Assembly: GCF_004343075.1 (NCBI RefSeq)
Contig: NZ_SLXP01000014.1
Span: forward strand, 1 to 64,000
Direction of reading: 5' to 3'
DNA length: 64,000 nt
Origin: Rhodovulum marinum
GTDB taxonomy: Bacteria > Pseudomonadota > Alphaproteobacteria > Rhodobacterales > Rhodobacteraceae
Shown here: one piece after another, positions 375-12,632 of the stretch
How positions within the stretch are numbered: position 1 is the stretch's first letter
Layout: each line of letters starts with the position of its first letter
The notes under the pieces: generated by a model
Database searches by the model: none
The model's input: the letters and a program-made list of their open reading frames with translations, nothing else
What the model was told of the DNA's origin: nothing
Program-made: the position numbers and the translations under genes

Positions 375-3300
375 GTGCCAAACTCCGAGTTCGTCGAAGG
401 GCATTCGCAGCACATGCAAGGACTTGCAGCAGAACTTCTTCTCAACGCCGTCCGCGAAGAGAAACCAATTGTGCTTGTAGCTGGACAGGACTTTGCGGTT
501 CCTCCTGCGCCATCGAATGTGCTGACGCTCTTCAAGAAACGAATAGCCCATTCTGGTGAACGCTTCGGCTGGCGCCAAGTGCTCGACCATCAGCTCAACG
601 ACGAAGACAAGGAATTTCTTGCGGAGCGCTTCGACCGCATGGCCCCAAATTCCATTGCGTTGCGCGCAATTGAGCTTCCATGGAGCGCTGTCTTTACCTC
701 GTCCATCGATCCGCGATTTGCCAGTCGATTTTCAACTCGCGGCCGGCAACCAGAGGCAGTGCTATCGCGCAATCACTACGCCCGGGTTTCGCGGAGCAAA
801 TCACGACCTCCAGTTTACCACCTGTTTGGACGCTTGAGCGAGGTCGCACCCGAGGCTCGAATTCCAAGCTCAAGAATTGAACTTGCGCTGCGCAAGCAGA
901 CCCACGCTAGCGAGTTACTCAACCGCGTCGCGGACACTGCGACGGCTCACGGTCTCGTTATCATCGATGGTGTTGATGTGCACGGAGACTGGCTCGGAAT
1001 CGACGATCTGTTCGCTGCGCTGCTAAGTCAGCCAGGTATGCAGGTGCTTTGGTTTCAGGCTCCACAGATACTGTCGACAGACCTGTCGCTCGCGATGCAA
1101 GAAACAGGCGCACTTGTCACGACGGAAGTCTCCCTCGGGTCTTGTGTCGCGACGCTGGAGGCAGAGGGTCTTCTTGATCTTTCAGAAGTATCCGCCCCGG
1201 AAGATCCTGCACGCATAACCACTGCAGATGGTGCAATCGATATCTCGCCGCAGCTGCGTCTTCGTGTCGAGGCTTCAGCCAATATCGTTGATGACACTTG
1301 GACGGCGCAACCACCCGCGCTCGATGGAGATCAACTCGCCGAGGCGTTCCGGGTGTTCCACGGTGATCTCGGGGGGTTCCGGAACCTCGTCGAAGGCATC
1401 GAACGCGGCTTTGCTATTGAACGGGGGTTTGAACGGGACCTCTTGGGCTTGCTCGAGAGAGCCGTGCGTAGGGCCGATAAATCGGACGGTCTCGTGGTTC
1501 TCCACGGACAATCTGCAACGGGAAAAAGCATTGCCCTTGCTCGGCTCACTTGGCTGATACGCACGCGGCTCCGCTTACCGGTGCTGATATGTCTCAATCG
1601 GCTTCCCAGCTTCGCGGATATTGATGCTTTTTGCGTCGAGGCGGAGCAGGCGGGGGCTCCGACAACTGTTCTAGTCTGCGACGCGAACCTGCCGATACAC
1701 CGCTACCGCGAGTTGACCTCTGCTTTGCAGAGCCGAGGCAGGAAAGTCACTACCGTGGGTACAACTTATCGGATTGAGGATAGATATCTTCAGGGTCAAG
1801 ATTTTGCGGTTGAAGCGCCTGTCGAGCTGTCGCCGGAGGAGACCGCCGCGCTTGGCGAGTTGATCGCGCAGATGGCTCCAGGCGAGGTAGTTGTAGGCAC
1901 AGTGCCAGACGGCTGGAACATGCTTGCTTGGGTGTATCGCAAGCTATCCTGGGGACGCTCGCGCGTCGCTCACGGAATTGGCGCCGAAGCACGACGTGCG
2001 GAAGCCCTTATTCGCGAGCGGGCGCGAACGACGCCGCGACCCGCAAACACCTCGAAACTCGCCGAGCAACTCCTGCAGGTTGGGTTTGCCGGCGAATCTT
2101 TCTCAATCTTCGATGAAGACACACAAGGGGCAGAGCTTGGCGAAGATGTCGCCGGACGACTTATCGATCTTGTGATGGTAACCGGTCGCTTAGGCGTACC
2201 GGTGCCAATCAACCTCTTGATACGAGTGCTCAGCAGTCAAGTAGGTCACTTGGACTACACTACGGTTGGTCACCTATTTGAAAATCTTGATCTATTTCGT
2301 TGGCGAACGGCCGATGCCGAAGGCTCTGACCTGCTGATCTCTCCACGGCTGCAGCTTGAGGCTGAGCTGATTTGCCGTCGGCGCCTAGCTGGTACCGACC
2401 GGGAAATCGAATGCGTCGTCGATCTTATCCGCGGGGTGCAGTTCGAGGGTATTGAGCAGGCGCACGAGCGTTCTTTCCTTATCGATCTTCTCCAGAAACT
2501 GGATCGTGATGGACCGCGCGGGCAAGCCTACAAGCAGGGCTACCTCCGTTTTGCTGATGCGCTTCGCTATCTCAGGGAGCAACGTGGAATATGTGATGCG
2601 TCTCTCATGCTCAGGGAGTGCGTGTTTTACCGACAGGCCATCTTTTCGCAGGATGGGCCGGACTCTCCCGACCAAATGCCAGAGGAAGAACGCCTAAGGG
2701 TTCTCGACACAGCTAGAAGCGTCATTGAGGAAGCCATAAGACTGGCTGCGTCGGGTGAGATGCATGTCGGTAAGCGCAATAGATTGAACCTTAGCGTCGA
2801 GCGAGCCTCGATCTACGGTTACCTCGCTGTACAAAGAGCGCGGACCGGCGATCCTACGATGTGGTCGGAGTATGAAGCCGCACGCCAGGCGGGCCTGCGG
2901 GCCACTGCGTTGACCGATGATTACCATCCGATCGACGTTGCGTTGTGGACAGCGCTAGACGTGCTCGAGGGCGAGAGTACGGATTTACACAAGGCCCAAC
3001 TGGTTGCTGATCTCTATTCTACACTCGATCTGGCCGAAACCATTAATCTGCGGCCAGAACAGAGGGTTCGCTACCAGCAGCGTCGGCACAAGGTCGCGAG
3101 CATTCTTGAGGATAAAGCTTTGGGCGAGGACGCATTGACGAGTCTTGATGCCGTTGCTCCTGCGACTGCCGCTTTTCTGCGCGCCCGCCAGCTTGCACCA
3201 GACGTCTCTGACGGTGAGCTAGCCACTGAAAATCAAGTTTCAAAAGCCCTGCAGGCTGCCCGAATTCTTGAAAAAGACATGGAAGCAATGCGCGATGTTC

Positions 3301-3806
3301 GTTGCCTTCGGCTACTCGTTCGCATGCGCTGGTTAGTCGCAACTAGACAACGATTGTTTCGTGGAGAACGAGGGCGCACCCCCTCGGATGCCACAATGGC
3401 CAGTCAGCTATACGACCTGGTAGCGACGCAGAACGAGCGACTTGGCGATGCTGTTCGCAACCAGGATAGATACTTGGAGGCCGTGCTCGCATTCTTGTCA
3501 GGAGATACCCGCGGTGCAGCGGATCTTTTTCGTGACCTCGCGAGGGACACCGAATTCGAGGATCGCTCGCGTGTTATCAGAAAGTTGATCTCAACAGGTA
3601 TCAACGGACGGCCAATCGACTATTCAGGACGCGTGCGCCGACACTTAGGCGGAGATCGCTGGCTTGTCGATGTTGATGGCCTGGAAGCGCAGATCGGACT
3701 GCTTGAACACGAGTTCCGGTCAGAACAGATCAGTCCCGGGCGTCAGCTCAACCGCTTCTGGATCGCCTTCAACTACATTGGACCGGTCGCCGAATACCCG
3801 AGATGA
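375..3806 (+). CDS. SIR2-like (degenerate) / P-loop STAND-type NTPase with helical repeat C-terminus; putative defence protein
   Basis: A 1143-residue protein. Residues about 30-215 resemble a SIR2-type Rossmann domain: IVLVAGQDF (32-40) where SIR2 proteins have a GAG motif, PWSAVFTSS near 102-110 where they have the TTNYD motif, and VYHLFGRL (147-154) where the catalytic LHG motif is expected. The histidine appears to be Phe and the TTN motif is altered, so the fold may have lost NADase activity. A P-loop NTPase follows: Walker A GQSATGKS (378-385), Walker-B-like TVLVCDA (431-437). From about residue 600 the protein is mostly helical and TPR-like, with a small beta-rich tail. This layout recalls STAND/Avs-type antiviral ATPases. 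It overlaps the next gene by ATGA, so the pair is probably co-translated. The start is GTG at 375; ATG at 414 is an alternative. Function is inferred, not established. Confidence 0.6.
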   Translation: MPNSEFVEGHSQHMQGLAAELLLNAVREEKPIVLVAGQDFAVPPAPSNVLTLFKKRIAHSGERFGWRQVLDHQLNDEDKEFLAERFDRMAPNSIALRAIELPWSAVFTSSIDPRFASRFSTRGRQPEAVLSRNHYARVSRSKSRPPVYHLFGRLSEVAPEARIPSSRIELALRKQTHASELLNRVADTATAHGLVIIDGVDVHGDWLGIDDLFAALLSQPGMQVLWFQAPQILSTDLSLAMQETGALVTTEVSLGSCVATLEAEGLLDLSEVSAPEDPARITTADGAIDISPQLRLRVEASANIVDDTWTAQPPALDGDQLAEAFRVFHGDLGGFRNLVEGIERGFAIERGFERDLLGLLERAVRRADKSDGLVVLHGQSATGKSIALARLTWLIRTRLRLPVLICLNRLPSFADIDAFCVEAEQAGAPTTVLVCDANLPIHRYRELTSALQSRGRKVTTVGTTYRIEDRYLQGQDFAVEAPVELSPEETAALGELIAQMAPGEVVVGTVPDGWNMLAWVYRKLSWGRSRVAHGIGAEARRAEALIRERARTTPRPANTSKLAEQLLQVGFAGESFSIFDEDTQGAELGEDVAGRLIDLVMVTGRLGVPVPINLLIRVLSSQVGHLDYTTVGHLFENLDLFRWRTADAEGSDLLISPRLQLEAELICRRRLAGTDREIECVVDLIRGVQFEGIEQAHERSFLIDLLQKLDRDGPRGQAYKQGYLRFADALRYLREQRGICDASLMLRECVFYRQAIFSQDGPDSPDQMPEEERLRVLDTARSVIEEAIRLAASGEMHVGKRNRLNLSVERASIYGYLAVQRARTGDPTMWSEYEAARQAGLRATALTDDYHPIDVALWTALDVLEGESTDLHKAQLVADLYSTLDLAETINLRPEQRVRYQQRRHKVASILEDKALGEDALTSLDAVAPATAAFLRARQLAPDVSDGELATENQVSKALQAARILEKDMEAMRDVRCLRLLVRMRWLVATRQRLFRGERGRTPSDATMASQLYDLVATQNERLGDAVRNQDRYLEAVLAFLSGDTRGAADLFRDLARDTEFEDRSRVIRKLISTGINGRPIDYSGRVRRHLGGDRWLVDVDGLEAQIGLLEHEFRSEQISPGRQLNRFWIAFNYIGPVAEYPR

Positions 3807-4690
3807 GCACGACTTCGCCGATTGACCTGTCTGACCTGTACGCGACGCTGAGAAGGCGACTTGCTGTGCACGTCTCTGAAGGTTGTGATGAGATTACGCT
3901 CCGCCTTCCGCAAGCATTCGATGGAGAGTTGGCATTCTACAGGCTAGTGAATTGGGCGTATGCATTGGTGAATGAAGCAGCCCGCATTCCGCTACCATAC
4001 CTTGCGAACCTGCCGCCATTACGCGCCAACGATATTTACAAGCGCGAGATCGGTTTTCTGCGAACCTATCTGAGCCACAATCTGGGAAACAGTAAGCGCG
4101 ACCTTCAAACGGCGGCGGGTGCCGCTAGGTGGTTCGGGCAAGCCTGCGGTAAGGGATCTCCGAGAGAACCCGAGCACTATGCCGCCGCTTGCCATTTTCT
4201 CGCTGATCGGCTTCGGACAACTTTAGAAGGAGCTATCGATGCATGTGATCTGCTAGATGACCCAATCGACGGTCCAGCGCTCGTTTCTAATCTACATCTG
4301 CAGGTCAGCCAAACATGGGAAGCACATCGGTTCGATCCTATTGTACAGGACTGCGCAGAGAAGATCGGAAATCCAGGAATTGATCTTCTGAAGTTTCGCA
4401 GTCGAAGATTGGACATCTGGCGGGCAGTGGTAAAGAATGCTGAGGCGGCAGCAGTAGAAACTGCTGTGAAGCGTCAGATTGAAGCGGATCTCCTTAGTGA
4501 GATCGATACAAGGCTTCCGATAGGTGCTCGGGAAGCCAAAGAGCATCTTTGCGTTTCAGGCAAGGATGCTGTCGTTGCCGCCCTCCTACTGCTGCGAGAT
4601 GCCCGGTCCAAAGGCAATTTATCAGTTCCAGACATACTCGTTCACGTGAACAAATCAAATCAAGGCTCTTCGGACCGATCTGAGTCTTAA
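3803..4690 (+). CDS. Helical partner protein with an Rx4H (HEPN-like) motif, unknown function
   Basis: A 295-residue protein whose ATG overlaps the stop of the SIR2-like gene (ATGA). I recognise no named family. It appears almost entirely alpha-helical. Residues 87-92 read RTYLSH followed by Asn, matching the Rx4-6H motif of HEPN ribonucleases found in many toxins and antiviral effectors. The tail from about residue 280 is Ser/Asn rich. If the HEPN reading is right, this could be the effector and the NTPase the sensor. A simple regulatory subunit is equally possible. GC is lower than in the core genes nearby, which suggests transfer with its partner. Confidence 0.5.
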   Translation: MSTTSPIDLSDLYATLRRRLAVHVSEGCDEITLRLPQAFDGELAFYRLVNWAYALVNEAARIPLPYLANLPPLRANDIYKREIGFLRTYLSHNLGNSKRDLQTAAGAARWFGQACGKGSPREPEHYAAACHFLADRLRTTLEGAIDACDLLDDPIDGPALVSNLHLQVSQTWEAHRFDPIVQDCAEKIGNPGIDLLKFRSRRLDIWRAVVKNAEAAAVETAVKRQIEADLLSEIDTRLPIGAREAKEHLCVSGKDAVVAALLLLRDARSKGNLSVPDILVHVNKSNQGSSDRSES

Positions 4691-4760: not shown

Positions 4761-6757
4761 CTAAAGTTCGTGTACATAAGGCTGGACATCGCAAACTTCC
4801 TTGGCGATCTCGACGACATGGCGGTGATGAGTCAGGTAGATCGCTTGACCGCTCCGGCCGATCCGTTCCATGAGACGGCAGGCGGCACGCGTTCGGTCCT
4901 CATCGAAGGTCTCGAAAACGTCGTCACAAAAGAAGGGTAGCTGAACGCCCTGTGCTACCATTTGTTCGTAGGCCGCTGCGCGCAGCGCCAGATAGAGTTG
5001 GAACCTCGTTCCCTTCGACATGTCGCCGATCTGCTTGGCGGTGCCGCTCGCATCGACCGCCAACAAGATTTCAGCACCACCGTCCGGTTGCGTCAGCAGC
5101 TTCTGATAGGCGCCGTTCGTGAGCTCCGCAAAGGCGCGCTCTGTGGATGCCATCATGTCGCTCCGATGCCTGTCGCGATAGCGGCGGATGGCATCTTCGG
5201 CGAGGCGTAGACCGAAGTCCAACTCCAGATAGTCAAGAACCGCCTCTTCGATCTGAATCTGCAACGTGGCGCGCCGCTCGACCAGGTCGGCGATCTCTGC
5301 GCCGCCGGTAACACTGCCGAGGTCCCGCTCGGCATTGGCTCGGGCCACGGTGGCGGTGGACATCCGCTCTTCCGCGAGGTTGAGATCGGTGTCTAGGGAC
5401 TTCGCTTTCGCCTCGAGCGTTGTAGCGGTTTCATCGGCAAGTAGCTGGCGGGCTTCCTCCACTTTCCTCAGCGAGAGGTCGTCGAGGATCTGCCGTTCGA
5501 GCTCGGCGACCCGTTCTCTTTTTGCGATGATGTCGAGGCCCTTGCCCACAGCGACCCGAAGGGCGTCGATTGTGCTGGTGTCCACCGTCTCCGGGAACAC
5601 CGCACCAAGTTCCGCCACTTTCCTGTCGATGTCTTCGAGCTTCGCCTCGAGTTCAGTTCGCCGTTTTTCACCGTCTTCAAGCTTAGTACCGAGCTTCTCG
5701 TGCTGTGACTTGTCAGCCTGCGCTTGCTCTGCGAGCTCCCGCAGGCGCCGGAATGTGTCGAGAGGGTCGCTCTCCCCGATGCCGAAACGTGCACCAAGGG
5801 CGCCAGAGGCTTCCGTGAACCGGCGTTGATCGTCCTTCATCGTGTTAACCTGACGTTCGGCTTGTCGCCGCTTCTCGTTGTGTTCGCGTAGTTCGCGCAG
5901 CTGCCCGAGACCGGCGGCAAGTTGGTCGGGTGAGAGCATCTCGCCGAAAAGTTCGTGTACCTTTGCGCTCCAGGCCGCAGCAGTCCTCTCGGCGGTGTCC
6001 TCAAGGACTCCCTGTTCGCCTTGCCGGCGTTCGAGATCCTCCTCGAGGGCGGTGGTCTTGTCTGAGGCGGCCCGCACCTCTTCCTGGTGGCGCCGTTCGT
6101 TTTCGGCAAGACGTCGCGCGGCGAGCAACGCTGCATCCAATGTCGGGGTCTCCAAAGCGACGAGGGGCGTGAGCGCCTGACGAAGCTGCTCTGCCCGATC
6201 CAGCGTCTCCCGGTGGTGTTCGACAAACCTGTTCCGTTGCCGCTCAGCGGTTATGGCTTTGCTGTGTAGCGCAACCCAGTCCGAAAAAGCCGAAGGGGAA
6301 AGCGCCGGAAGTCCGATCTGCGAACATAGACCGTGGACTTGTCTCTCGAGCTCTCGTGCCTGCTCGGCGAGCCCATCGCGCTGTTCCCGGGTCGTCGTCG
6401 CGCGTGCTTCCGCGTCCGCCAGATCCTGCAGGAGCTTTCGCAGTTCGCCGAGCTCGCTCGCGTGGGCGAGACGCGCGGCGTTGATGTCGTCCACCGTTTT
6501 CATCGACGGTGCAAAGCTGTCCGCGCTCTCTGATGTCAGGGTTTCACGATGTGCTTGCCAAAGGGCGTCACGTCGGGTCCGCGCCGCCTGTTCCTCTTCG
6601 TCGCTTGCAATCCTAGCGTCTTCCGAGAGCCGGGTGATTTTCGCCTTCACGGCGGCGATGTCCTCGTCCAAACGCTCCAACCTGTCGTCAAAGCGTCCGA
6701 GCTTCTCCGCCAGATCGGCATGGCGTTGGGCAGTGTCTGCTGCTGTCGATGGATCGA
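4761..6757 (-). pseudogene. YhaN-type SMC-like ATPase, C-terminal two thirds (N-terminus lost)
   Basis: About 665 codons of a long coiled-coil protein ending in an ABC/SMC-type ATP-binding half. Visible are a signature-like MSKGTRFQLYLALRAA, a Walker-B-like LPFFCDDVFETFDED and an H-loop in YLTHHRHVV near the end. This matches the C-terminus of YhaN/AAA proteins that pair with the YhaO nuclease in DNA repair. The N-terminal Walker A half is missing. At about 6757 the sequence switches to an unrelated phage gene in the opposite orientation. The frame stays open upstream through that DNA as far as 7691, giving a formal 976-codon frame, but the upstream part is antisense and integrase sequence. 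No yhaO is adjacent. A broken gene is most likely. Confidence 0.7.
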
Positions 6758-7151
6758 CCGGGCAGACCGGGAGGGGCAGTATCTCTGGCTGATGCTCGAC
6801 GTCCTCGAGGGGCCGCAGCAGGGCCGCAAGGTCTTCGACCAGCTGAACCTGGTGAACGCCAACCCGACCACGGTCGAGATCGCGCAGCGCACGCTGTCGG
6901 CGATCTGCCACGCCACGGGCAAGCTGCAGGTGAACGACAGCGAGGAGCTGCACCTGATCCCGATGACGATCCAGGTCGGCGTGAAGCCCCCGAAGGACGG
7001 CTACGGCGAGCGCAACACGATCCGTTACATGGTGCCCGAGGCCCCGGCGCAGACGATCCCGCACAAGCCCGCCGCGACGCAGCCGGCCAGCGCGCCCGCG
7101 CAGTCGGCGCCCGCCCGCCCGGCCACCGCGCCCTGGAACCGCAAGAGCTGA
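6758..7151 (+). pseudogene. DUF669 phage/ICE protein, C-terminal fragment
   Basis: From about 6758 the forward strand encodes GQYLWLMLDVLEGPQQGRK followed by an NLVNANP and an AQRTLSAICHATG segment, then a Pro/Ala-rich tail and TGA at 7149. These are the hallmark central and C-terminal blocks of DUF669 proteins found in phage and integrative-element replication or recombination operons. The N-terminal part is gone; the sequence left of the junction belongs to the reverse-strand YhaN remnant. The breakpoint is placed by where homologous wording starts and is good to about ten bases. Confidence 0.65.
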
Positions 7152-7218
7152 CGCCCTCGGCCGCCGCGGGCGGATAGCTCGCGGCGGCCCGGACATCGCC
7201 AGACCCGAGAGACCGACC

Positions 7219-7316
7219 ATGACCAACACCCCCGACGCGGCCTGCGCGGCCGCGAACGCCCCCGGCTTGCCTGACGACACCCGGCGCCTGATCGAGATCG
7301 AGGACGCAATCGCGAA
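7219..7316 (+). pseudogene. Start of the phage gene downstream of DUF669, truncated
   Basis: An ATG at 7219, 67 bases after the DUF669 stop and in the same direction, opens a frame beginning MTNTPDAACAAANAPG and reaching IEDAIAKR before the sequence changes at about 7316 to integrase sequence on the other strand. It is probably the head of the next gene of the same phage operon. I cannot name the product from some 30 codons. Confidence 0.35.
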
Positions 7317-7317
7317 G

Positions 7318-7484
7318 AGACTGATCCTCCGCGACCGGCGTCCGGCGCGATACTGCACCACGTAGCCCTTCCGCCCGCTCGGCAGCACGCGCAGCCCGAA
7401 GCCAGGGATCTGGCTGTCCCAGACAAAGTATTCGGCGGAGCGGGCTTCGGCGGCGTCGACGAGGCGTTTGGTGATCTTGGGCAT
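7318..7484 (-). pseudogene. Tyrosine recombinase (phage-type integrase), N-terminal fragment
   Basis: Starting at ATG 7484 the reverse strand reads MPKITKRLVDAAEAR and then WDSQIPGFGLRVLPSGRKGY, ending near RRSRRISL. This is the DUF4102-like N-terminal domain of P4/phage-type tyrosine integrases. Only about 55 codons are left. The catalytic domain (R-H-R-Y) is absent because the sequence passes into the phage fragment at about 7317. It can no longer recombine DNA. Confidence 0.65.
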
Positions 7485-7585
7485 GGCGTTCTTCGGTGGG
7501 CCGCGCTGCAGCATGGATCGATACCGCCTGACGACGGCTTTGGGCCGTTTTCGCTGTGATCGGTTAAGCGGTTTTCTCTGTCCAA

Positions 7586-7652
7586 TCCAGCGGCGTTTCG
7601 CCAGGCGGCGCTTTCGGTGCCCCTTAGGCGCAATTGCAAAAGTGCCGCTGGA
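7586..7652. repeat. 9-bp inverted repeat upstream of the integrase fragment
   Basis: TCCAGCGGC at 7586-7594 and its exact complement GCCGCTGGA at 7644-7652 are separated by 49 bases. They lie just upstream of the integrase remnant, where attachment-site and excisionase-binding repeats often occur. No tRNA end is present. The arms are short and could be chance in GC-rich DNA. Confidence 0.3.
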
Positions 7653-7687
7653 CCGGGGAAAGCGAAATCTCGCATAAATCGTCAAAG

Positions 7688-8167
7688 TCATTCTTCATCT
7701 GCTCCGGCGACTTTCGCGGCCTCGAAAGCCAGCAGCAAGGACGCGAGAGAGGCGATCGTGTCACCAGTCGCGGCTTCCAGATCGCAAGCGGCGCCACGGG
7801 TGACGGTAAGGCACCCATCCGCCCCTCTTGCGACCCATCCTTTTTCTTGCAACGTGACCACCTTCCGCCGCACCGTCTCTCTCGGAATGCCCGAGTACTC
7901 GGCCACCGACTGTATATTGATCGGAAGCTGCCTGGTTTCCGTGTCGTCCAGTCGGGTCATCTGGGTTAATTCGTCCAGCGCCGGCACCCATCGCTCAGGC
8001 AGCGTCCTGCTGCCGATTACGGCCAGGACCAGAACAAGGTCGAGGTCGCCGTCGAAACGTTTCCGCAACTGCACAAGCAGGCGGGTGAACCCCGCCAGGT
8101 GGACGGGCCAGACCGTCCCGAAACTGGATTTGATGAACGCGCCTTGCGCGGTATCGCGTGACGGCAT
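7688..8167 (-). CDS. Winged helix-turn-helix transcriptional regulator
   Basis: A 159-residue protein starting at ATG 8167. That start has an excellent site, GGAGGAG, eight bases ahead; a start at 8239 would be longer but has none. Residues about 90-135 carry a winged-helix motif: SVAEYSGIPRETVRRKVV followed by LQEKGWVAR. The N-terminal part has a hydrophobic helix with VLVLAVIG. It is divergent from the outer-membrane-protein gene at 8270, with two short palindromes between them, so it probably regulates itself and that pair. The ligand is unknown and I cannot assign a narrower family. Confidence 0.65.
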   Translation of the reverse strand: MPSRDTAQGAFIKSSFGTVWPVHLAGFTRLLVQLRKRFDGDLDLVLVLAVIGSRTLPERWVPALDELTQMTRLDDTETRQLPINIQSVAEYSGIPRETVRRKVVTLQEKGWVARGADGCLTVTRGAACDLEAATGDTIASLASLLLAFEAAKVAGADEE

Positions 8168-8269
8168 CGCGCATGCTCCTCCAGCTTTGCCCATTTTGGG
8201 CGAAGAAAGTCTTCTCATGCAATTAGACTTAGTCAACACTCCGCTTGGAACATCATTGGGCGGACGTTC
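8168..8269. promoter_or_regulatory. Divergent control region with two palindromes
   Basis: Between the divergent regulator and porin-like genes lie two perfect inverted repeats next to each other: GCCC-ATTTT-GGGC at 8189-8201 and GAAGA-AAG-TCTTC at 8202-8214. Their place, about 20 to 50 bases before the regulator start, fits operators for the adjacent winged-helix protein. I see no strong sigma70 hexamers. Confidence 0.4.
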
Positions 8270-9775
8270 ATGGCGTCGAAATCTTCATTGCCCGCGCGGG
8301 CTCAATCTCGCGACGACGCGGCGCGCCGTGCGGTCGTCTTTGTGCAGAAGCACATGACCAGAATTTGTGCCGGTACCCTGATCCTCGCGCATGTCGCAGT
8401 GCTGCCGGCACAGGCGCAAGAGCGCGATCCGATGCTGCTCTACGAACAAGACGGCCTGACCCTGCGCGGGCATCTCCAATTCGGTGTGAATGCCGTTGCC
8501 GAGCGCAACCTGTTTTGGGATTTGGCGGCGACGACCAACCCGGGCAGTGGCTTCGACCCGGATACCAACTGGCTGGAAGGCTACATCAAGCCCGGCATCA
8601 GCTTCGAGTACCAACTGGACACGGGCGCCGTGTTCTACGGAAAGTTCTCTGCCGTGTCGTCTTACACCTGGGGAACCGACGCGTTCGACACGGGCGATAC
8701 CGGAGCCACCACTCTCGAAGAGGCCTATCTCGCCATCCGTGGCGACCTTGGTCCAGACCTGTCGTACGACCTGTCGCTGGGGCCGCGTGAGTTGACCCTC
8801 GGCACTGGCATGCTGATCGCGAACGGCGCGACCAGCGGGTTCGAACGTGGCGCCCTCAAGTTCGGCCCGCGCAAGGCCTGGGAAATGGCGGTGATTGGCC
8901 GCCTCTCCTTCGGGGACATCACTGGAACGGCATTTTACCTCGACCCGAACGAGTTGCCTTCTACCGACGGGAACAACGAACTGGCAGGTTTCGATCTGCG
9001 CTACGACGACCCGCGAGGGGGCTATCTCGGGGCGACATTCGTGAATGTGCTCGAGTCCGACTCGCCCTATCCGCAGGCTGCGCCGGGCGGCGTGGGCGCG
9101 CCCACGGTTACACCGGGCGCGCGCGATGGAACCAACACGGTGAGTGTTTACGCCAAGACGAACCCGTTCGCGGGCGCCTTGGAGAATTGGGTCTTCACCG
9201 CAGACTTTGCCCGCCAGTGGAATGACCGTATCGATCTGGACGCCTGGGCCGGGCGGGTAACAGCCGGATACACGTTCGCTAATGTGCCCTGGTCGCCGAA
9301 CTTGACCCTCGGTTACCAGACATTTTCCGGGGACGATCCGAACACGACGGCCCTGGAACGGTTCGACCCGCTCTACTATCAGGGAAGTCCGAGTGCCTGG
9401 GCGACGGGATCGAAGTCCGCCTCGACCTTCATCAATTCAAACGTGAACGCGCTGACCCTTGCGCTTCGGGTTCAGCCGACCCGGCAAGACACCTGGACGC
9501 TTCGGTATGCCCATATCCGGGCGAACGAGTTGAACAGCCCCGTCCAGTTCGGCCAGGCAACCCGCGTCGATTTGAACGGGAACGTGGTCTCGGGTGTCAC
9601 CGACGCCCATCTCGCCGACGACCTGTTCCTGGAATACAGCCGTATCATCAACCGCAACACGTTCCTGACGGCTGGCGTCTCGGTCTCCTTTCCGGGAGAC
9701 GGCATCGACAATGTCGTGGGCGGGAGCGCAGATCCATGGACAGGAGGCTTCGTGAATGTCGTCATCAACTTCTGA
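8270..9775 (+). CDS. Outer membrane beta-barrel protein, alginate-export-like
   Basis: A 501-residue protein. A signal peptide is clear if translation begins at the in-frame Met at 8354 (MTRICAGTLILAHVAVLPAQ, cleavage after AQA). The first ATG at 8270 would add 28 residues. The mature part is made of alternating strands rich in Tyr, Trp, Gly and Asp, and the protein ends FVNVVINF with a C-terminal Phe, as outer membrane barrels do. Overall wording resembles the AlgE/alginate-export porin family. It may carry a substrate or product across the outer membrane for the downstream hydrolase. The last 20 bases overlap that gene. Substrate is unknown. Confidence 0.65.
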   Translation: MASKSSLPARAQSRDDAARRAVVFVQKHMTRICAGTLILAHVAVLPAQAQERDPMLLYEQDGLTLRGHLQFGVNAVAERNLFWDLAATTNPGSGFDPDTNWLEGYIKPGISFEYQLDTGAVFYGKFSAVSSYTWGTDAFDTGDTGATTLEEAYLAIRGDLGPDLSYDLSLGPRELTLGTGMLIANGATSGFERGALKFGPRKAWEMAVIGRLSFGDITGTAFYLDPNELPSTDGNNELAGFDLRYDDPRGGYLGATFVNVLESDSPYPQAAPGGVGAPTVTPGARDGTNTVSVYAKTNPFAGALENWVFTADFARQWNDRIDLDAWAGRVTAGYTFANVPWSPNLTLGYQTFSGDDPNTTALERFDPLYYQGSPSAWATGSKSASTFINSNVNALTLALRVQPTRQDTWTLRYAHIRANELNSPVQFGQATRVDLNGNVVSGVTDAHLADDLFLEYSRIINRNTFLTAGVSVSFPGDGIDNVVGGSADPWTGGFVNVVINF

Positions 9776-11354: not shown

Positions 11355-11965
11355 GACATGCGAGGCGCAAGCTGAAAGAGGTCTTCGACCGCGACGGCTC
11401 CGAGATCGCCGCCGTTCGCCATTGTGCTTGAACCAATGGCGCACCAATGGCTCGCCCTGCGCCGGATCGCCGAACTCTACGCGATCGAGAAAGACATCCG
11501 CGGCTGCGCCCCCGGCCAGCGCCTGTCGGCCCGTCGGGCCCGGTCCGCACCTCTGGTCACCGCCTTCGGCGAGTGGCTGCAAGCGCAACGCCTGCGCGTC
11601 TCCGCCAAGTCCCGCCTCGGCGAAAAGCTCGCCTATATCCATGACCATTGGGACGGGCTGCAGACCTTCCTGACCGACGGCCGCGTCGAGATCGACTCCA
11701 ACGCCGTCGAAAATCTGGTTCGTCCGATTGCCCTGAATCGCAAGAATGCACTCTTCGCCGGTCATGACGAGGGCGGCAGGACCTGGGGCCGCATCGCCTC
11801 GCTGATCGAGACCTGCAAGATCAACGGCGTGGAGCCCTTCGCCTATCTCAAGGCCACCCTCGAGGCCATCGCGAACGGCCATCCCCAAAGCCGGCTCGAC
11901 GACCTGCTCCCGTGGAACTTCCAGCCGTCAAACTGAAAACCGGGTGACCGTCAGACGACGCTTAC
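11355..11965 (+). mobile_element. IS66-family element, right-hand remnant
   Basis: The remnant carries the C-terminal part of the IS66 transposase and an intact right end. The reverse complement of 11937-11965 begins GTAAGCGTCGTCTGACGG, matching the GTAAGCG start of IS66 inverted repeats. The left end, tnpA, tnpB and most of tnpC are missing. The eight bases beyond the border (GCAGGAGC, 11966-11973) would be one copy of the target duplication, but its partner is lost. Confidence 0.7.
11357..11936 (+). pseudogene. IS66 transposase TnpC, frameshifted C-terminal fragment
   Basis: A first short piece reads HARRKLKEVFDRDGSEIAA and runs into a stop. After about 40 unrelated bases a second frame resumes at LRRIAELYAIEKDIRG and continues through GRVEIDSNAVENLVRPIALN and a typical IS66 tail to TGA at 11934. 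The catalytic DDE N-terminal half is absent. Both the deletion and the shift make it non-functional. Confidence 0.7.
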
Positions 11966-12632
11966 GCAGGAGCGGTGCGATGCGCCGAAGGCGGCGGGCT
12001 TGCGCGGGAAGCCGTCGGCTGCGTCGGTCAGGGCCGGGTAGCAGTGCCTTAGATGGGCGATCCAGTCCGTGGCGGTGCCTTTCCGAGATGGTCGGCAACG
12101 TCAGGGCAATTGCCCGGTCGGCCAGGTCGGCGCGTTCCGACAGGTCGGGAATGCCGTTCAGGATGCAGGGGCGCGTCGCGTCGACCAGCACCTCGTCGGC
12201 ATCGCTGTGCAGCTTGCGCGTGGCGAATCCGCCCCCGGTGGCCAGGCGGCACAGCGCATCGGCCATGCTGGGCTTGATCCGCGAGAGGTTGTCGAAGACC
12301 AGGACATGCGCGCCCTGGGCCGCGATCACCAGGCCGCGTTCGTCGCCGGGAAAGCTCCGGGTTTCGAGGGTGGACGGATCGACCAAGGCCCGCAGAACCT
12401 TCGACGTGGTGCTCTTGGCGCTGCCCTGTTCACCGGTCAGGATCAGGAGTGGGTAAGGGCCGCTCGGCCGCAGGCAGCCCAGGAGCCAGCTCACCATGAG
12501 CCGGAAGTCCCGATCGGTGCCGACATTCACGAAGGCCCGCAGGGCGTCCAGATCGCCGCTTCCCGCGATGGGAACGGGCAGCGCGGCCATGCTGGGCGCG
12601 CGCTTGAAGCGCGGTTCCTTCGCCTGGCGCAT
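11966..12632 (-). pseudogene. Phage/ICE P-loop ATPase (primase-helicase type), broken by IS66
   Basis: Reverse-strand frame with Walker A GEQGSAKSTTS, a hydrophobic strand ending HVLVFDNLS, then CRLATGGGFATRKL and RPCILNGIPDLSERADLADR. These blocks match large ATPases carried by prophages and integrative elements of Rhodobacteraceae. After LTLPTISE the reading frame turns to Arg-rich nonsense, and the gene then stops at the IS66 right end. The N-terminal part upstream of 12632 is also missing. It is a remnant in opposite orientation to motB. Confidence 0.6.

Follow-up and report, generated by a model that had tools for sequence, protein, structure and literature searches.

The window analysed here, 64,000 nucleotides from Rhodovulum marinum that begin at the first base of contig NZ_SLXP01000014.1 (C14), carries near its left end two overlapping genes, p1 and p2, whose homologues stood side by side in all seven complete, distinct pairs that were recovered. 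We consider, with moderate confidence, that the pair is cargo of prophages or other mobile DNA and encodes a two-subunit antiviral system, in which p1 is a sensor with a SIR2-like domain that is dead as an NADase and p2 is a HEPN-type RNase. The antiviral function is what we infer from these genes and their setting, and it would probably be exerted through abortive infection. The two genes and the domains of p1 are as follows.

375-3806, + strand: p1 gene, GTG start, 1143 aa, open frame
471-1100, + strand: SIR2-like domain of p1, about residues 33-242, placed by HHalign (residues 69-239) and by motif columns
1398-1760, + strand: nSTAND_NTPase5-like P-loop domain, Walker A GQSATGKS (residues 378-385), Walker B D436
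2472-3548, + strand: helical (TPR-like) repeat region, about residues 700-1058, from the AF2 model and Foldseek TPR matches
3624-3803, + strand: small C-terminal beta domain (about residues 1084-1143), modelled as three strands with very low confidence (block pLDDT, the predicted local distance difference test, 24-35)
3803-4690, + strand: p2 gene, ATG start, 295 aa, open frame; helical partner and candidate HEPN RNase

The two frames are joined by a 4-nt ATGA overlap, which confirmed the coupling described in a preliminary description of this DNA. The start of p1 may be the ATG at 414 instead of the GTG at 375, as judged from two closely related homologues (L079 and L081) whose first residue corresponds to residue 14 of the window protein. 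Besides the window, complete pairs were found on five IMG/VR viral contigs (L075, L076, L077, L079 and L081) and in another genus (L058), and p2 lay directly downstream of p1 in 7/7. The junction was a 4-nt overlap (ATGA or GTGA) in five of the seven and a 1-nt overlap in L077, while L058 had a 2-nt gap if its p2 begins at the first ATG past the p1 stop. L058 comes from genome G858, and its p1 and p2 are 36% and 28% identical to those of the window.

The pairing was seen from both sides. A pattern built on the AVFTSSIDP stretch of p1 matched 9 viral contigs, 3 of which encoded p1 homologues; these were re-extracted with longer flanks and are L075, L076 and L077 (L062, L068 and L063, respectively, being earlier excerpts of these contigs). 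A scan with a p2 profile gave six loci, each on its own contig; three had already come from the p1 search, while L079, L080 and L081 were new, and p1 was directly upstream in 6/6. The p1 gene of L080 is truncated by the contig start and its printed protein stretches are the same as those of L076, so this locus was left out of the seven pairs. The neighbourhood co-occurrence that the preliminary description had proposed to check is thus strict, the search with each gene having recovered its partner. Identities among the members ranged from 31 to 87% for p1 and from 23 to 79% for p2. Both genes are under purifying selection in the relatives: between L079 and L081 the ratio of nonsynonymous to synonymous substitution rates (dN/dS) was 0.04 for p1 (dS 1.7) and 0.09 for p2 (dS 1.4), both dS values being high, and between L075 and L076 it was 0.10 for p2 and incalculable for p1, where dS was saturated. 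Decay of the window copy was rejected on its own open frames, selection having been measured in relatives only.

The N-terminus of p1 was compared with SIR2 proteins by HHalign. An alignment of the seven p1 N-termini matched a SIR2 profile with Prob 94.6, P 7.1e-8 and a score of 59.9, whereas 100 column shuffles reached at best a score of 20.1 and a P of 0.066, and the reversed profile gave a P of 0.4. The profile held 15 sequences, 14 from the same bacterial family and one (L034) added from outside it; the picker required GAGxS-type and HG-type strings, which left 10 of 27 loci unused, and three of the 17 sequences picked were omitted (L098 and L109 as apparent mispicks, L115 untested although plausible). 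A weaker test with a two-sequence SIR2 profile gave Prob 63. When 325 single proteins, including the seven members, were ranked, the SIR2-STAND protein L034 came third among the non-members with a P of 0.01, and a second SIR2-STAND protein, L054, fell outside the top 25. Pfam (HMMER) and PDB profile scans did not detect SIR2 in p1, and a PF13289 search of the genome did not pick p1. The 15-sequence profile match with its shuffled controls supports homology of the p1 N-terminus to SIR2 (SIR2_2, PF13289-like), with which the other comparisons agree less well.

The catalytic motifs of this domain are replaced throughout the family. TTNxD has become T[S/T]S[I/V]D and HG has become FG in 7/7, with the aspartate D112 kept; the GAGxS position, aligned only in the comparison with the two-sequence profile, reads GQ[DESN]xx/GQxx[AG] in 7/7. 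The window protein itself has GQDFA, TSSID and FG. In Avs5, according to the available text of its report (PMC12931631), defence is lost with N110A, with D112A and when the NG position is changed to Ala or Gln, and is partly retained with His there. Judging from its motifs, p1 is unlikely to hydrolyse NAD (nicotinamide adenine dinucleotide) in the manner of Avs5, because the Asn of TTNxD and the His of HG are lost even though D112 is kept. The degenerate SIR2-like domain proposed in the preliminary description was therefore borne out by both the shuffled-control match and the loss of motifs in 7/7.

Behind this domain, p1 reads as an nSTAND5-type NTPase, TPR-like helices and a small beta domain, in that order. 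The window protein matched nSTAND_NTPase5 (E 5e-6) and two generic AAA families in Pfam at E up to 1, and nSTAND5 (PF25199) was matched at the same threshold by 7/7 members (best 4e-8). The bit scores of window p1 (26.9) and L058 (33.4) are both under the curated cut-off of 34. A GQS[AG]xGK[ST] string followed by a hydrophobic strand ending in Asp occurs in 7/7, with the Walker A Lys and the Walker B Asp invariant, and the P-loop NTPase of STAND type that had been read from GQSATGKS is supported. A PF25199 search of 299 genomes gave 272 with a match at E up to 1e-4 and 14 over the cut-off; many of the 14 loci inspected had other STAND architectures, and phmmer detected no p1 relative among the PF25199 loci compared. 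Separately, the nSTAND5 proteins of L035-L037 differ at the N-terminus, and each of their genes directly follows an ORF (open reading frame) of 270-301 aa (4-nt overlap in L035, 12-nt gap in L036, 1-nt overlap in L037); they are possibly another coupled STAND pair.

The AF2 model of p1, made from four sequences, had a mean pLDDT of 52.7, with blocks mostly at 60-88 across the helical stretch 700-1050. The first Foldseek match of this model in the PDB was human SAMD9 (9zjs; E 2.8e-5, prob 0.99, 1172 columns), although with a TM of 0.14 and an rmsd of 30, and the next ranks were mostly helical-repeat proteins, including Tom70 and the TPR domain of LGN. These matches are to be read with the pLDDT of 53 in mind, and an implausible top match in a viral library reached E 5e-4. 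The long helical repeats of the earlier reading agree with both the model and the TPR matches. In the C-terminal domain, W1096, N1133, G1136 and P1137 are invariant; Pfam gave no OB match there, and an OB/S1-like nature is proposed by inference only.

The second protein carries RTYLSHN at residues 87-93, in which R, H, N and also L are invariant in 7/7; in total, 25 columns are invariant among the seven members, including E42, E58, R87, H92 and N93. The AF2 model of p2 is all-helical, with R87 near the end of one helix (80-90), H92 in the loop just after it and E42 and E58 in the helix before (42-58). In HEPN proteins, Rx4-6H, with a polar residue following the R, lies at the end of helix-3 and an acidic residue lies in helix-2, as the consulted portion of a survey of these families describes (PMC3710099). 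The placement of the p2 Rx4HN thus agrees with that of HEPN RNases, within a low-confidence model. The same text notes that HEPN families are poorly conserved outside their motifs and records HEPN-STAND-TPR-S1 fusion proteins (Anantharaman 2013, PMC3710099); these fusions of HEPN to STAND, TPR and S1 offer, by analogy, the strongest outside support for the HEPN reading of p2.

The viral contigs place the pair among phage genes, which lie within about 6 kb in 5/5. Close by are an integrase and a replication initiation gene in L075, a central tail fibre J and a tail fibre in L076, a tail protein and an endolysin in L077 and L079, and an integrase in L081; the prophages of L077 and L079 are related, and in both the pair sits just beyond the endolysin region. 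Hotspots of anti-phage systems occur in P2-like phages and in P4-like satellites, and for the latter the available part of that work mentions SIR2, HEPN and STAND proteins (PMC9122126). A defence role is favoured because of the phage genes near the pair in the five viral contigs. On L081, the gene of a PIN-domain protein (PF16289; 1383-2627) separates the integrase from p1 at some 2 kb ahead of the pair, and could be a second toxin or defence gene.

In the mechanism we propose, p1 would be sensor and switch. Its TPR-like C-terminal half would recognise something made or disturbed by a phage, and its NTPase would then drive a shape change or oligomerisation. The SIR2-like domain, which is the NAD-cleaving effector in Avs5-type relatives, would with its catalytic residues lost now serve as a scaffold or docking surface. 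The putative effector would be p2, produced in a fixed ratio to p1 through translational coupling and held or activated by contact with it. As a HEPN-type, metal-independent RNase using R87, H92 and an acidic residue of the preceding helix, p2 might cut cellular RNA, perhaps tRNA, and so stop translation.

The closest known system is Avs5, or SIR2-STAND, in which the SIR2-like domain, STAND NTPase and helical repeats follow one another in the same order as in p1 (PMC12931631, in part). Avs5, however, depends on NAD hydrolysis and retains GAGxS, TTNxD and either HG or NG, and its NTPase is called nSTAND3, whereas the best match of window p1 is nSTAND5. The available text of that report describes no partner gene and does not contain the word HEPN, whereas p1 always occurs with p2. 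An identity of p1 as an ordinary Avs5 was rejected on the loss of catalytic residues in 7/7. The same genome does encode an intact SIR2-nSTAND5 protein, L054, on contig C29 (1386-4517; GAGAS, TTNYD and LHG; nSTAND5 E 9e-29). The terminal repeat of the window also closes C29 (6.6 kb), so that L054 may lie near the pair in the genome, although six contigs have that end. The L034 protein (6841-9297) is a SIR2-nSTAND5 with LNG for LHG, the same NG variant as reported for Avs5 (PMC12931631, in part).

SAMD9 proteins consist of AlbA, variant SIR2, STAND, TPR and OB domains, have bacterial members of which many carry a kinase and lack AlbA, and have Gly in place of the Walker A Lys, according to the consulted part of the family's description (PMC5445408). 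They share with p1 the variant SIR2-like domain, the STAND NTPase and the TPR array, in an order that agrees, and perhaps the C-terminal OB domain, which is putative in p1. Unlike them, p1 is without an AlbA or SAM part (only about 30 residues precede its SIR2-like domain, with no Pfam AlbA match) and has the Walker A Lys. No SAMD9 chain was among the 19 PDB sequence matches of p1 at E up to 10, in a PDB copy that was not checked for holding one. A claim of family membership was rejected on the missing AlbA, the different Walker A and the lack of a sequence match. We claim a common architecture, not membership, because p1 has the Walker A Lys and no AlbA and because published Avs5 also resembles SAMD9 by Foldseek (PMC12931631, in part). 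The HEPN-STAND-TPR-S1 fusions resemble the pair in combining a HEPN effector with a STAND, TPR and S1/OB sensor. As described, they differ in being one protein, whereas here the candidate HEPN has a downstream gene to itself and p1, the large protein, bears a dead SIR2-like domain.

Several observations weigh against a sensor paired with a HEPN RNase. No match between p2 and HEPN was seen in Pfam, PDB sequences or Foldseek, a direct comparison with HEPN-family profiles not having been run. The p2 model averages a pLDDT of 54 and drops to about 39-46 over residues 71-100, and the residue after R87 is Thr in 6/7 but Ala in one member. An Rx4H among the p2 invariants has a chance rate of 3% by random placement and 7% by label permutation. 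Structure prediction of both proteins, which the preliminary description had suggested, thus bore out the helical/TPR part of p1, but for p2 the fold search gave nothing usable; likewise, of its claim that p2 bears a HEPN-type Rx4H, the motif RTYLSH with its invariant R and H holds, whereas the HEPN fold was not demonstrated. In p1, the invariance of D112, S110 and G37 indicates that part of the SIR2 pocket is constrained, leaving room for nucleotide binding. PADLOC 2023, scanned with window p1, p2, the downstream ORF at 4761-7691 and the p1 family members, matched neither window p1 nor p2 at E up to 1, and gave the seven p1 members only weak matches in single members, the best being PDC-M54A (E 0.002). 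NCBIfam gave nothing for p1 or p2, and Pfam nothing for p2 at E up to 1.

Some of these points would fit p1 acting alone as the defence protein, its diverged SIR2 pocket still working on a nucleotide and p2 being a helical adaptor, chaperone or inhibitor with a coincidental Rx4H. The constrained pocket and the chance rate of the motif favour this, as does the tolerance of Avs5 for NG in place of HG (PMC12931631, in part), and the p2 invariants outside the presumed HEPN core (W172, A174, F177, D178, R199, W206 and R207) suggest a binding surface. However, the very Asn whose change to Ala kills Avs5 (same source) is replaced in 7/7 along with the HG His, and the R, H, N and L of the p2 motif together with two Glu in the preceding helix are kept in 7/7; we regard this explanation as rather unlikely. 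A toxin-antitoxin-like addiction pair, in which a toxic RNase (p2) is kept in check by a large ATP-dependent inhibitor (p1) and selection favours the stability of the mobile element and not defence, would account for the fixed pairing, the overlap and the mobile setting, and HEPN with MNT is an abundant two-gene module of this kind (PMC7641770, in part). We nevertheless think it improbable. Usual antitoxins are far smaller than 1143 aa, and p1 has the SIR2/STAND/TPR architecture of a sensor, comes before p2 and is better conserved than p2. Least probable in our view is a regulatory pair, of the prophage or of the host, with no part in defence: bacterial P-loop NTPase-TPR proteins can serve in signalling (PMC5445408, in part), as STAND proteins also do, and the window proteins lack a match in the defence database, but the rare, patchy distribution and the phage-cargo positions fit defence better than housekeeping.

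The rarity of p1 was apparent in genome samples that overlap one another. It occurred in 1/385 genomes of the class sample, 1/394 of the family and 1/16 of the genus, each time the R. marinum genome itself. At E up to 0.01, 4/390 genomes of the order matched, at full length in this genome and G858 and by short, chance-level stretches in the other two. In the genus of G858, 2/121 genomes matched, one with a fragment only, and in the class of G475 a single genome of 151 matched in the NTPase region only, which was judged generic. Among 61 relatives, p2 was found in R. marinum alone. Genome G1305, from another genus, holds a p1 remnant (L074, 5291-6069) of 390 bp, or about 130 codons, with 91.8% DNA identity, and a search of the genome at E up to 0.01 gave no p2. 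ORFs beside the remnant resemble IS3-type transposases by eye, and Pfam gave none for the one tested.

Searches of plasmids and phages with tblastn added no members: p1 and p2 had no plasmid match at 1e-5 (E 5 or worse at E up to 10), and the best phage match of p1 had an E of 0.2. The p1 of L068 matched no phages, plasmids or, as DNA, E. coli genomes. Single-protein pattern scans confirmed 0/35 and 0/14 stretches in genome contigs, and the first scans of viral sequences confirmed none among 2, 239 and 9 stretches; a WEAHxFDP pattern gave 2 stretches, both unrelated. Leads H8 (an Enterobacter plasmid) and H7 were dropped, at best reaching E 0.05 to the p2 profile, and the short NTPase-region matches L056, L057 and L078 (E 0.003, 0.005 and 5e-6) were dropped as generic P-loops.

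In the window, the G+C content is 56.8% for p1 and 52.6% for p2 against 66.6% overall, as the lower composition noted earlier had implied. Since the first base of the window is the first base of the contig, only 374 bases lie upstream of the pair, and they begin with one further feature.

1-95, no strand: contig-terminal repeat, present in 100% identical form in five other contigs of this genome, always at the extreme end

We took the repeat for the type that breaks assemblies because its copies sit at the very ends of contigs. It is presumably the end of an insertion sequence, read by eye in a window that has no transposase there, and the adjoining insertion-sequence end of the preliminary description is supported to that extent. 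Downstream of the pair, the ORF at 4761-7691 (- strand, 976 aa) is chimeric and looks like a rearrangement scar, with an integrase arm-domain fragment near its N-terminus (E 1.2e-4, below the Pfam cut-off) and, in the second half, weak matches of SMC/SbcC type; in PADLOC it gave only LmuB (E 0.006) and JetC (E 0.14). Ordinary genes follow, and then a flagellar cluster from about 12.8 kb, identified mostly by reading translations and, for MotB, by Pfam. Directly ahead of that cluster, the ORF at 11928-12632 (- strand) encodes a truncated AAA ATPase with sub-cut-off matches only, and by eye it looks like a remnant of a phage or plasmid primase-helicase. The claim of phage debris beside the pair is accordingly weak: the integrase arm fragment and the truncated AAA ORF speak for it, but all matches are below cut-off.

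The individual parts of this system are already known, and the split two-gene arrangement appears new; a two-gene SIR2-STAND/HEPN arrangement was not described in the open literature searched, which leaves most subscription papers and preprints outside. We suggest, tentatively, that the pair is a bacterial equivalent of SAMD9 that is carried by phages and has its sensor (dead SIR2, STAND, TPR and OB) and an RNA-cutting effector as separate subunits. It would capture an exchange of effector, from NADase to an RNase in trans, between Avs5 and the SAMD9 and HEPN-STAND fusion proteins, and once activated it would cleave tRNA or other RNA and halt translation. The pair adds a defence candidate unrecognised by the PADLOC library scanned. 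If our reading is true, a SIR2-STAND sensor can drop its NADase and still work by recruiting an RNase encoded next door, which would provide a modular route between NAD-depleting immunity of the Avs5 kind and translation-stopping immunity of the SAMD9 kind. What SAMD9-like sensors detect, and why the variant SIR2 is retained, would then become approachable with two bacterial genes and phages infecting a laboratory strain.

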